From: Fictibacillus halophilus
GTDB taxonomy: Bacteria; Bacillota; Bacilli; Bacillales; Fictibacillaceae
Reading direction: 5' to 3'
NCBI RefSeq assembly: GCF_016401385.1
Contig: NZ_JAEACF010000001.1
Coordinates: forward strand, 1,860,001 to 1,924,000
Length of the DNA stretch: 64,000 bases
The notes below the pieces were generated by a model that was not told the DNA's origin, did not search any database, and saw only the letters and a program-made list of their open reading frames with translations. Made by a program: the position numbers and the translations under genes. This document shows, in pieces, positions 15,590 through 53,845 of this stretch (position 1 is its first letter; the number at the start of each line of letters is the position of its first letter).

Positions 15590-15850
15590 AAAAGAAATGC
15601 CAATTATGGCCAATAAATAAATGCGTTGAAAGGGATTAGTACGTAATCTCCTCCGTTTAGAGAGTGGAATCCATAGGCTGCAAGATTTCACCGTAAAGGA
15701 ATTACTGAACCTGCCCTGGAGCAGTCTGGAGAAATCCGGCGCAGTTCTGCGATAAAGACATCTTGAGCGGGCAATCAATCATGCCAACAAAGGTGGTACC
15801 ACGGATCACTCCCATCCGTCCTTTATATTAGGACTGGGAGTTTTTTTATA
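15590..15850 (+). promoter_or_regulatory. T-box riboswitch, proline-specific, upstream of proI
   Basis: The leader has a long stem I, the T-box sequence AGGTGGTACC at 15791-15800 whose TGGT can pair with the ACCA end of uncharged tRNA, and a terminator hairpin with T7 at 15807-15848. The specifier is most likely CCT (Pro) at 15710-15712, directly after TGAA as in other T-boxes. Uncharged tRNA-Pro would favour the antiterminator and turn on proI. Specifier choice rests on motif position and on the downstream gene. Confidence 0.9.
15807..15848 (+). terminator. conditional terminator of the proline T-box
   Basis: ACTCCCATCCGTCCT can pair with AGGACTGGGAGT, followed by T7. The left arm is adjacent to the T-box sequence, giving the usual switch between terminator and antiterminator. 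Confidence 0.85.
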
Positions 15851-48382: not shown

Positions 48383-48832
48383 TTACAGCATATCTAAAAA
48401 GCGCTGCGAAACATCTGCACTAACTTCTTTAGAACGACAAATAATCAAAATTGTATCATCGCCACAGATCGTTCCCATTAAATCTTCCCAATCTAGCTTA
48501 TCGATTAACGCTCCAATGGCATTTGCATTACCAGGAAGTGTCTTCATAATGATCAGATGATCTGCATAATCAATACTAATAAAGCTGTCAGTCAGCGTTC
48601 TTTTTAATTTTTGCAGTGGGTTGAATCTTTGGTCAGCCGGAAGACTGTATTTATAGCGACCATCGTTCATCGGTACTTTCACAAGATGCAGTTCTTTAAT
48701 ATCACGGGAAACTGTTGCTTGGGTTACATTAAAGTTGGCATTCTTGAGCAGTTCCACTAAGTCGTCTTGCGTTTCAATATCATGATTGCTAATCATTTCA
48801 CGTATTTTAATATGTCGTTGTCCTTTATTCAC
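48383..48832 (-). CDS. argR: arginine repressor ArgR/AhrC
   Basis: 149-aa hexameric arginine sensor. N-terminal winged helix ([40 protein letters not shown]) and C-terminal oligomerisation/arginine-binding domain with [14 protein letters not shown]. In Bacillus it represses arginine synthesis and activates catabolism. Starts with GTG at 48832 behind GAGGTGG. Target sites of its type lie in front of the artP-like gene here. Confidence 0.96.
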
Positions 48833-48955: not shown

Positions 48956-49756
48956 TAATGTTTCATGAGCTGACTTAACAACTTCTTCAATATTCTCTGA
49001 AGTTATGGTTTGAAAGTCCTCATTATTCACTTTTCCATGCATTAAAAACTCTATGTTGCCATCCCCACCAGTAATAGGTGAAAAAGACAATGCAACAGGA
49101 TTAATCCCTGTTTTACGGGCAAAATCTGTAATCTCTTCGATCACGCGTTTATGAACTTTTGGATCTCTAACAATTCCCTTCTTCCCGACTTCTTCACGTC
49201 CTGCTTCAAACTGAGGCTTGATCAAAGCGATCACATCGCCAGTTGGCATAAGCTGAGTCAGCACAGGAAGTATAATTCGTAGAGAAATAAATGAAACGTC
49301 AATTGTGGCAAAGTGAGGAATGCCCTGTTGTAGCTGATCAGGGGTTACATACCTAAAGTTTGTTCTTTCCATCACCGCTACTCTAGAGTCATTTCTTAGC
49401 TTCCAGGCTAGTTGATTGTAGCCAACATCGATCGCATAAATATAAGATGCGCCATTTTGAAGTGCACAATCTGTAAAACCGCCTGTTGAAGCTCCAATAT
49501 CCATCCCAATCTTTTCTTTAACATCAAAATCGAAAATCTGAAGTGCTTTTTCAAGCTTCAATCCGCCTCTTCCTACATAAGGAATGACATCTCCTTTAAC
49601 CTGGAGAGGCGCATCTTGTTCTATCTTTTCTCCTGGCTTATCCATCCGGTTCGTTCCTGAATACACAAGACCTGCCATAACAGATCGTTTGGCTTTTTCT
49701 CGTGTTTCACAAAGTCCTCGATTGACAAGCAGTACATCTACACGTTCTTTTTTCAT
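48938..49756 (-). CDS. yqxC: TlyA-family rRNA 2'-O-methyltransferase (YqxC)
   Basis: 272 aa: an S4 RNA-binding domain (residues 1-62, [21 protein letters not shown] at the start) and an FtsJ-type methyltransferase domain with the SAM motif [14 protein letters not shown] and the catalytic-lysine motif LIKPQFEAG. TlyA in mycobacteria methylates 16S and 23S rRNA; targets in Bacillus are inferred. Its ATG overlaps the dxs stop by 4 bp. Confidence 0.92.
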
Positions 49757-51651
49757 GTAAGAAGACCCTTTTCTGCCTTTCTTTTAACAAGTGCTTTCAC
49801 ACGCTCAACGAGATCAGGTGTTGTAATTCCGATCTCTTCTAATAGTTTTGTTACACTTCCATGCTCGATAAAGCAATCTGGTATTCCCATGCGATCGATG
49901 ATCACATTAGCCTGGTGATCTGCTGCATGCTCTAATACCGCACTTCCAAAACCGCCTTGAAGAACTGCTTCTTCAAGAGTTAATATAGGCATATTTTCCG
50001 CATAAAGCTCTTTTAGCATTTTTGAGTCAAGCGGTTTAATAAAACGAGCGTTGATCACACGTGCAGAGACACCTGATTTCGCAAGGATTTCCCACGCTTC
50101 AAGTGCCATTGGAATCGTCGTTCCGAACGTAAGAATCGCAACGTCGTCTCCCTCTTTAAGCACTTCCCATGAACCAATTGGGATATTCTCGAACTCTTCA
50201 TCCATCGGTACTCCTGAACCGTTACCTCTTGGGAATCTGATCGCAATCGGACCATCTTCGTAGTTAAGAGCAGAGTAAACCATATGCTGAAGCTCATTTT
50301 CATCTTTCCCCATCATCAATACCATATTTGGGATATGACGCAAGAAAGCAATATCAAATACACCTTGGTGCGTTTCTCCATCAGCACCAACAAGACCAGA
50401 TCTGTCTATTGTGAAAACGACATTCAAATTCTGTCTCGCTACATCATGAACAACTTGGTCGTAACCTCGCTGCAAAAACGTAGAATAGATCGATAGGACC
50501 GGTTTCATATTCTGCGTCGCAAGCCCAGCTGCCATCGTTGTTGCATGCTGTTCAGCAATACCAACGTCAAACAAGCGATCAGGAAACGCTTTGCCGTAAT
50601 CCGTTAGCTTAGAGCCAATGGTCATGGCAGGCGTTATGACAGCAATACGATCATCTTTATGTGAAAGAGTCTCGAGTGTTTTACTGACAACTCCGCTGTA
50701 AGAAGGTCCTACTTGCTGCGGTTTGATTTGCTCACCTGATTCAATCTTATAAGGACCTACACCATGCCAGCTGTCTTTCTTATCACTCTCAGCGGGTTCA
50801 TATCCTTTTCCTTTTTTCGTAAGAACATGAATGATTACAGGACCTTTCGTCTTTTTCGCATATGTTAGATTTTCGATCAGGTCGTCTACATCATGACCAT
50901 CAACTGGTCCTAAATAGGTGTAGCCCAATTCCTCAAAAAACATGCCAGATACTAACAAATACTTCAAGCTATCCTTTACACGTTCGGCCGTTGCAGCCAA
51001 TTTCCCGCCAAACGCAGGTATCTTACGGATTAGTGATTCAAGCTCATCTTTTGCTTTATTGTATTTTCTAGCTGTTCTCATGCGTCCTAAAACGTTGTGA
51101 AGAGCCCCTACATTTGGTGCGATAGACATCTCGTTGTCGTTAAGTACAACGATTAAGTCTTTCTTTTCATGACCGATATGGTTCAGCGCTTCTAAAGCCA
51201 TACCGCCTGTTAAAGCACCATCACCAATGACCGCAAGAACTTTATCATCCGTTTTCTTAAGATCTCTGGCGATAGCCATACCCATAGCTGCAGAAAGTGA
51301 TGTAGAACTGTGCCCTGTTTCCCAAACATCATGTTCGCTTTCAATCCTTTTAGGAAAACCACAGAGACCTTTATACTGACGAAGTGTATCAAACTGAGAC
51401 GCTCTTCCCGTTAGGATCTTGTGCACATAAGCTTGATGACCTACATCCCAAATAAATTTGTCTTTCGGACTGTCAAAGACTTTGTGCATGGCAAGCGTTA
51501 ATTCTACAACGCCAAGATTAGGACCTAGGTGGCCTCCTCTAACTGAAAGTTTTTCAATTAGAAAAGAACGAATTTCGGCAGCTAATTTATTTAATTGTTC
51601 AGTTTCATACGTTTTCAAAAACTGAGGATCTTGAATTTCTTCCAGGTTCAT
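49753..51651 (-). CDS. dxs: 1-deoxy-D-xylulose-5-phosphate synthase
   Basis: ThDP enzyme of 632 aa for the first step of the MEP isoprenoid pathway. It has [14 protein letters not shown], the ThDP-binding [15 protein letters not shown] with [11 protein letters not shown], and the C-terminal [15 protein letters not shown]. The start ATG 51651 (MNLEEIQDP) matches the known N-terminus of Bacillus Dxs and has AGAGAGG upstream; a longer frame begins at 51672, overlapping the oapA stop. Placed downstream of ispA and the OLE RNA, so three isoprenoid-related units are in one operon. Confidence 0.96.
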
Positions 51652-51671
51652 GGAATATGCCTCTCTTTCCA

Positions 51672-52268
51672 TTAACGCCTTTTCTTCTCTCTTTTAGCAG
51701 GCGATAGCAGTTTAATTCTTAATTTTTCCTCTAAAAAATATAATAAACGCCCAACCTGAAAAATAATAAAGGTTGAGTGGTTGATCGCATATGATTTTCC
51801 TAACGCTTTGCCTCCTACAGTAAGTGCAGCAACTACACTAGTGAAGACGATCGAGATCAAATACTCGGAGTTTGATCCAGAACTATTCCCCATAGAGAGT
51901 GTAAGTTCTACAACAACTGCAGCAGATGCTGTTCCGCTAACGATTCCAGAGATATCACCGATAACATCGTTACAAAAATTCGCTACACGATCTGCGTTTC
52001 TTGTAATGATTATAGCATGTCTTGCTCCAGGAACCTTCTCAGAAGCCATCGCATGAAACGGAACTTCATTCGCAGCTGTTGATGCTACCCCCACTATGTC
52101 AAACAGAACCCCGGTTAATACGATTAGAAAGACGATTCCCATCCCGATAGCCCACGAAACTCCATTTAACAAAAAAGAGGATACAACTGTAAAAATAGCC
52201 GCTAACACAAGAGTGATAACGGCAATGCTTGTACTCCATTTGAGTGTTTTAGTAAAGGAATGCTTCAT
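51672..52268 (-). CDS. oapA: OLE-associated membrane protein OapA
   Basis: 198-aa integral membrane protein with about four TMs (residues about 13-35, 38-60, 115-133 and 138-162) and a conserved centre, [20 protein letters not shown] and [15 protein letters not shown], reminiscent of CNNM/DUF21 transporters. The identification as OapA rests on three points: it lies directly downstream of the OLE-like RNA, between ispA and dxs; its length is close to that of B. halodurans OapA; and it is membrane-bound. OapA binds OLE RNA and carries it to the membrane. A strongly basic C-terminal tail ([10 protein letters not shown]) suits RNA contact. Confidence 0.85.
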
Positions 52269-52305
52269 GCATAACTCCTCACCTTTTGGTCACTTTATGT
52301 AATAG

Positions 52306-52918
52306 GGAGTGGTCACCTTATTAAGTAAAGACTGCGGCTTAGGTCCAGTAGGTTTTCCCAGAAGAGTACGAAATGTCGCCATATTCGCGGTTTCCCTTTA
52401 CTCTCTTCTTAACGCTGTTGCCAAACGTTAGACTAGATTACCACTTAGTCCGCACTATAATCCCTAATAGGTGTCAGGGCAGAACAGTCTAGGAGTTTTC
52501 CTCAACAGCCTCACGCACATTCCCTAGCCTCTTTTGCAGAGAAGATTTCATATGGTATAAAGCTCATAATCAGCGGCCAACCGATACAGGCTTTTCACAC
52601 CATAATCCCCTCAAGCTCCACTCAAGGCAGGCTACGCTGCTCGCCTTCTTTTCCTGTGAACAAGAAAAAAAGCTAAGCAGGTTCAAACCCCATTTCGCAG
52701 TAAGGTCTTTTGAACACAAACCGCAAATATGGGGGCCTCCGCGGAAGAAGGGTCCTCGCCCACATGCCATTGTGGATCGCCCTTCAACCTTAACTCCCAG
52801 CGATGACCCAAGGCTGGGCGCCTCAAGCCAATACAAGGAACTTCATCGATGTGCCCTTTGGCGGATTTTTAGGCCCGCCTTCAGGAATGGGGGGCTGACT
52901 AGAATACTGCACCACTCC
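52306..52918 (-). ncRNA. ole: OLE RNA (ornate, large, extremophilic)
   Basis: The 695-bp gap between ispA and oapA holds no believable gene on either strand, yet is rich in stems. On the minus strand it begins GGAGUGGU (52918-52911) and ends ACCACUCC (52313-52306), which pair perfectly, giving about 613 nt, the known size of OLE (about 610 nt). Its location (ispA-OLE-oapA-dxs) is the published one. GC-rich conserved-looking blocks occur at about 52690-52900 (for example GCGAGGACCC and GCGGAGGCCCCC). OLE forms a membrane ribonucleoprotein with OapA and is linked to cold, ethanol and magnesium tolerance and to carbon/energy adaptation. Co-transcribed with the isoprenoid operon. Confidence 0.9.
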
Positions 52919-52963
52919 AAAGCAAATAATATCATATCATACTTCCAATTTTGCAACAATCTC

Positions 52964-53845
52964 TTAATGGTTTCTTTTTATAATGTAGTCAGCGATGGAC
53001 GCTAATATGCCTGTATTTCCGTTGATCTTGTTTAAATGGTCCAAAGAAATATGTATGTGATTTTCCATTTCTTTCTTTGCACCATCAAGACCAAGAATCT
53101 TAGGGTATGTGGTTTTCAAGTTGGCTTCATCACTTCCAACGGGTTTACCTATCTCTTCTTGATTCCCTGTTACATCAAGGATGTCATCTTGAATCTGAAA
53201 AGCAATTCCGATATGCCGTGCATAGTTTGTCAGGTGCATAAGATCTTCATCAGAAGCTCCTGCTGCAATTCCACCTATGATCACTGAACATTCAAGCATC
53301 TTACCTGTCTTTTTTTCATGAATGCTTTCTAACTCCATTAACGAGAGGTTTCTGTTTTCTCCCTCTATATCTTCTACTTGACCACCGACCATACCTGTTG
53401 CTCCTGCTGCTTTTGATAATACTGCAATCATTTGAACTTTTTGGACAGCTGTTAAAAAGGAGTTGTTCGTAATCAAGCTAAAGCTCTCTGTTAATAAAGC
53501 ATCACCTGCTAATATCGCTTGAGCCTCGCCAAAAACTTTGTGGTTAGTGAGTTTGCCTCTTCTATAATCATCATTATCCATAGAAGGAAGATCATCATGG
53601 ATCAGAGAATAAGTGTGAACAAATTCAATCGAACAAACAACATCTACTATTTCTTCTGTATTCTTTTCAAAAGATTCCATAACTGCAAGGGCAAGGATTG
53701 GACGTATTCGCTTTCCACCTGCAGAAATTGAATATAGCATCGATTTTTTTAATGTTTCTGGAGCATCCAACTTGTCCAAATAAGCGACCATCTTTTCTTC
53801 AACCAATGTTTTTTTATCTCGAAGATATTGTTCAAACGCTATCAA
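52964..53845 (-). CDS. ispA: farnesyl/geranyl diphosphate synthase
   Basis: Trans-prenyltransferase of 293 aa. First aspartate-rich motif [10 protein letters not shown] near residue 85-95, second QIQDDILD near 220, plus [12 protein letters not shown]. It elongates DMAPP with IPP to farnesyl diphosphate for undecaprenol and quinone synthesis. TTG start at 53845 behind GGAGGAAG; it overlaps the xseB stop by 4 bp. OLE RNA begins about 46 bp after its stop. Confidence 0.95.

Follow-up and report, generated by a model that had tools for sequence, protein, structure and literature searches.

Within the window, a stretch of 64,000 nucleotides from a genome of Fictibacillus, a genus of mostly mesophilic bacteria of soil and sediment, the end of ispA at 52964 and the start of the oapA open reading frame at 52268 lie either side of a 695-bp gap (52269-52963), and the question raised by this locus is what the gap encodes. 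The first-pass annotation, which had placed the gap exactly, read it as the gene for OLE RNA, a membrane-bound RNA of the bacterial stress response that is known from many Gram-positive bacteria and ranks among the largest structured RNAs of bacteria. From the computational follow-up described below, we are highly confident that the gap holds the gene for a full-length OLE RNA from a Fictibacillus species.

OLE RNA between ispA and oapA

A covariance-model search, which the first-pass annotation had named as the check on identity, matched the whole region: the Rfam OLE model RF01071 (cmscan, Rfam 15) aligned to 52931-52293 on the minus strand with 498.3 bits (E 3.3e-143, against a gathering score of 50), covering model positions 1-616 of 616. 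The RNA gene (52293..52931, minus strand), computed in this way to be a full-length member of the family, has an overall GC content of 0.48 and was the only copy found when the whole genome was searched. OLE was found in none of 14 control genomes, Bacillus subtilis among them, in line with the statement that this RNA is absent from B. subtilis. The window held one other Rfam match, a T-box leader at 15617-15826 on the plus strand (98.1 bits, gathering score 93).

The neighbours, strand and length of the RNA all agreed with those proposed for OLE. The computed gene order is ispA-OLE-oapA-dxs, all on the minus strand, with ispA, encoding farnesyl diphosphate synthase, upstream (52964..53845; NF045485, 404.5 bits), oapA, encoding the 198-aa OLE-associated protein A, directly downstream (51672..52268) and dxs beyond it (49753..51672; TIGR00204, 939.7 bits). 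OLE and oapA thus lie side by side in a cluster of fundamental genes which, with names taken from family matches, runs biotin carboxylase, Asp23-family, nusB, folD, xseA, xseB, ispA, OLE, oapA, dxs, FtsJ-type methyltransferase, argR, recN and spoIVB. The argR gene of this cluster (48383..48832, minus strand; PF01316 and PF02863) comes fourth among the protein genes downstream of OLE; a contact between ArgR and OLE is mentioned as unpublished in PMC12265935.

Terminal helix and covariation

The 613-nt span of the RNA had been proposed from complementary ends, and these were found exactly as described, the 5' arm GGAGUGGU at 52911..52918 and the 3' arm ACCACUCC at 52306..52313 (both minus strand) enclosing 52306-52918. 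The pairing of these ends was compared across 151 loci, 81 from Bacillales and 70 others, the latter comprising the 30 best-scoring OLE loci of a phylum sample (L082-L111) and loci hand-picked from different families (L112-L151). With the helix located by an ungapped best-offset search, at least 7 pairs were formed in 147 and at least 8 in 135 of the 150 usable sequences; one sequence, L085, whose contig stops at the RNA, was excluded from the counts of helix, tail and covariation, and the search settled on an odd offset in at least L049, L058 and L139, so the tail windows of these three may be misplaced. Among 77 representatives below 85% identity, the 5' and 3' arms of the same locus averaged 10.3 pairs, compared with 6.9 when 3' ends were swapped between genomes, a value that is high because the inner bases are conserved; at least 8 pairs were formed in 70 of the 77, compared with 31% of swapped arm pairs, and one position of the helix used six standard pair types.

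Covariation was measured by a G statistic with average-product correction over 123 non-redundant sequences, that of the window included, against a null of 15 alignments, simulated with independent sites on a FastTree tree, and 27 base pairs covaried at E ≤0.05. Two of these are in the terminal helix (52918-52306 and 52917-52307), and three (52895-52508, 52888-52519 and 52887-52520) link nucleotides 34-42 to 409-421 of the extended sequence, forming an inner helix whose 5' strand (52887..52895, minus strand) joins the 5' segment to 52508..52520. All five exceeded every value in the simulated alignments, and the ends of the RNA therefore pair beyond chance by two tests, the swapping of arms and the tree-simulated null. 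In the Rfam structure line, model positions 1-53 have no pairing partners, so neither helix is part of the Rfam structure. The terminal helix is probably the published P1 and the inner helix probably the published P2/P3; as P1 and P2 already appear in published models, where they belong to domain 2 (PMC12265935), neither helix is claimed as new.

Loop motifs and the P6 stem

On the Rfam structure line two hairpin loops of the window RNA resemble elements to which roles are given in PMC12286853. UUGGCC (52575..52580, minus strand), which contains a GGCC palindrome, is taken to be the L9.3 kissing loop, and the A-rich GCCUAAAAA (52866..52874, minus strand) is taken to be L4; both would be putative dimer contacts. 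The same six letters UUGGCC were present in 37 of the 151 loci, and GCCUAAAAA in 121 of the 151.

A perfect anti-Shine-Dalgarno mimic in P6 has been reported for bS21 binding in Halalkalibacterium halodurans, and is not class-defining. The mimic, CCUCCU, was not found in P6 of the window OLE (about 52740-52795, minus strand), and across the loci it was present in the P6 3' strand of 9/81 Bacillales and 3/70 others (12/151). According to PMC12054373, mutants M1-M3 showed the exact mimic to be dispensable for bS21 binding.

Partner proteins and MpfA-type proteins

Genes for OapA, OapB, OapC and bS21 were all found computationally in the window's genome, the last in a single copy. OapA shares 66% identity with its H. 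halodurans counterpart over 185 aa and carries a DxxxD motif (D101/D105) that was invariant in 34 aligned sequences; with its position directly downstream of OLE, it showed no notable difference from known OapA. OapB is a 107-aa KOW protein (L154, 1468-1791) matching PDB entry 7k9b, 'OLE-associated protein B' (E 1.4e-33), and OapC is an L7Ae-type protein matching the YbxF/L7Ae-like entry 3v7e (E 1.8e-26) and also 4lck, YbxF (E about 2e-26). The neighbours of oapB and oapC, recognised by eye, are what we take to be translation and transcription genes.

The likeness of OapA to the MpfA/CNNM Mg2+ exporters consisted of a CNNM match of 17.4 bits, which is below the cut-off, and of folds retrieved by Foldseek with an all-helical model of modest quality (pLDDT 67), where the best PDB entries were the CNNM structures 7m1t and 7m1u at a non-significant E of 0.04-0.26. 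A PDB sequence search with OapA gave no relative (one match, E 0.33). These weak CNNM matches are in line with the kinship of OapA and CNNM proteins published in PMC11332333. OapA differs from the exporters in that the searches showed neither a CBS nor a CorC domain in it, and the three MpfA-type proteins of the genome (L157, L158 and L159), each with CNNM, two CBS and CorC_HlyC domains, are encoded elsewhere.

The presence of three such proteins beside OLE bears on a published trend for OLE hosts to have at most one MpfA. Two or three CNNM proteins were present in each of the 18 Fictibacillus genomes, including the one without OLE. Among 50 other OLE-bearing genomes, which account for 50 of 80 loci, strong CNNM matches numbered none in 2 (one being the H. 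halodurans genome searched), one in 18 and two or more in 30; this was a hand count over 91 table rows out of 118, with the 27 that fell below the family cut-off left out. In 15 genomes listed as free of OLE in the phylum sample and belonging to the same order or class, taken without phylogenetic matching, there were 1-6 each, with two or more in 13. The means (1.8 matches in OLE hosts, 3.3 in OLE-free controls) follow the published direction, yet coexistence of OLE and CNNM proteins was common in this sample, where the full MpfA architecture was checked for L157, L158 and L159 and the other counts are of CNNM matches.

Distribution in relatives and loss in one Fictibacillus genome

The nearest named records to OapA among the best 80 of 339 loci were from Fictibacillus norfolkensis, F. 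phosphorivorans and F. nanhaiensis (97-99%), and the body of the RNA was 99.4 and 99.5% identical to that of two Fictibacillus loci (L002 and L003). Full-length OLE lay upstream of oapA in 80/80 of these best loci, a figure that is not an independent rate because the loci were picked by OapA similarity. More widely, OLE was present in 284 of the 398 genomes sampled across the phylum and in 17 of 18 Fictibacillus genomes, the window's own included, and all 17 also gave a full-length oapA match.

The one exception in the genus, G398, has its ispA and dxs matches 362 nt apart (L161, 6883-7244), with a spacer made up, in order, of a promoter-like stretch, CCTCATACATA and about 35 oapA codons at 60% identity; past these codons, no oapA match was found. 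CCTCATACATA recurs in the sequences flanking the 3' side of OLE in L012, L013 and L015 (it and the promoter-like stretch were read by eye). Judged from the sequence, this genome lacks OLE and the greater part of oapA at one and the same site, and their joint absence fits the near-complete co-occurrence of OLE and OapA given in PMC11332333.

This spacer also provides a measure for the reading in which the window's OLE is itself a decayed or silent copy that no longer functions. The score of 498.3 bits is below the 538.6 bits of H. halodurans, and the -35 hexamer of the candidate promoter (TTGTTG) is weak, as decay would have it; against this, the match is full length, with the terminal helix and loop motifs present, oapA, oapB and oapC are intact, other Fictibacillus score alike in the genus search (493-506 bits), and 17/18 genomes of the genus keep the RNA together with a full-length oapA match. 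As the OLE-free G398 is also without most of oapA, true loss looks different from the window locus, and we consider decay here very improbable.

Candidate promoter

Alignment by eye with relatives gave a candidate OLE promoter, TTGTTG-17-TATGAT, at 52931..52959 on the minus strand; TTGAG at the -35 position with a 17-nt spacer was present in most of 18 loci listed. Scored by hexamer matches plus one point for TG, a promoter-like site whose -10 falls a short way upstream of the helix reached at least 9 in 81/81 loci, compared with 9.6% of shuffles, and the mean score was 10.4 compared with 6.8 in shuffles. In the window the scorer's own best site was TGCAAA-18-TATTAT, which differs from the choice by eye. 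A strict generic promoter scan gave no site at the candidate promoter; it returned 3 promoter-like sites where 5.5 were expected and 3 terminator-like sites where 2.0 were expected, none of them placed to serve OLE.

These sites bear on whether the interval, which immediately precedes oapA on the same strand, is merely a cis-regulatory leader for oapA-dxs rather than an RNA in its own right. Its adjacency and orientation are as that reading would have them, but a promoter-like site stands ahead of the interval in all 81 loci, the terminal helix closes it as a unit, and in H. halodurans OLE is reported to have its own promoter and to be processed to an abundant RNA of about 630 nt (PMC9723947); we give a leader very little credence. 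A small protein is less credible still: the 88-aa TTG open reading frame at 52570-52836 is open over 88 codons and also open in 2 of the 10 Fictibacillus loci closest to it, but it matches no Pfam or NCBIfam family at E 0.001, its counterpart is broken by an internal stop codon or a net frameshift in 8 of those 10 and in 68 of 70 other loci (local alignments, 49/80 nearly full length, with the frame's own stop excluded), and the same sequence carries RNA-type covariation. This coding reading was rejected, and no protein gene accounts for the gap.

UACAUA tail

Just 3' of the terminal helix the window carries UACAUA (52296..52301, minus strand). TACATA within 40 nt past the 3' arm was present in 70 of the 81 Bacillales loci, where 2.1 were expected from shuffles, and in 20/25 Bacillales representatives below 85% identity. 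As the motif was first noticed in the Bacillales list, the other loci are the less biased test, and there it was found past the 3' arm in 18 of 69 (1.15 expected) and in 16 of 52 representatives; it was the commonest hexamer in the representatives of both sets. Its background rate in other 40-nt pieces of the Bacillales loci was 0.8%, or 1.7% in AT-rich pieces. The motif is not universal, being missing from 11/81 Bacillales and 51/69 other loci.

A reading of TACATA as the -10 of an oapA promoter was rejected, since a -35 with at least 5/6 matches preceded it in 0/69 loci (3% of shuffles) and its distance to oapA was variable. The spacing was tight to the helix (sd 2.3 nt) and loose to oapA (sd 39 nt), which, with no preceding -35, ties the motif to the end of the RNA. 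We infer that the terminal helix and the UACAUA tail mark the ends of the RNA and a 3' trimming site. More tentatively, the unpaired UACAUA could be a conserved 3'-maturation signal, strongest in Bacillales and found also beyond, which together with the helix would form a boundary element read by a nuclease or end-binding protein to free OLE from a polycistronic transcript, or else an anchor for domain 2. OLE RNA and UACAUA were not found together in the openly accessible main texts searched, so the novelty of the tail motif is provisional.

Proposed role and significance

The window OLE has in common with that of H. halodurans (L041) a full-length model match, oapA directly downstream, a promoter-like site, the terminal helix, the UACAUA tail and the partners OapA, OapB and OapC, those on the H. 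halodurans side being published. It differs in its sequence, at 69% identity, in its Fictibacillus host, in having no perfect anti-Shine-Dalgarno mimic in P6, and in sharing its genome with three CNNM proteins above the cut-off, where the H. halodurans genome searched has none.

A mechanism can be proposed from the published H. halodurans work and cryo-EM structures, with partner roles taken from PMC11332333, PMC12265935, PMC12054373, PMC9723947 and PMC12286853. OLE would be made from its own promoter and by operon read-through, and the transcript would then be trimmed. The RNA would dimerise and be held at the membrane by OapA, with OapC/YbxF predicted to bind the kink turn in domain 1 and OapB/YbzG to bind P13 in domain 2. 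The resulting complex may help the cell under cold, alcohol, Mg2+ and poor-carbon stress. Several observations weigh against the OLE reading: the weak -35 where the generic scan gave no site, the missing anti-Shine-Dalgarno mimic, the three MpfA-type proteins, the modest OapA model with its sub-threshold CNNM matches, and the loci that lack UACAUA.

The first-pass annotation had recognised this OLE RNA correctly from the letters alone; as a discovery, the locus is ordinary, adding another host to a known RNA class. Fictibacillus and OLE RNA were not found together in the openly accessible literature searched. Three side results may be new, namely the UACAUA tail, the scar left by loss of OLE and most of oapA, and the occurrence of OLE with three MpfA-type proteins; of these, the tail motif and the loss scar could have escaped a specialist. 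The coexistence of OLE with three MpfA-type transporters offers a testable case, and the loss of OLE and most of oapA in G398 a natural comparison within the genus. A conserved 3' boundary motif, if true, would give a handle on the maturation of OLE and on its unresolved domain 2.
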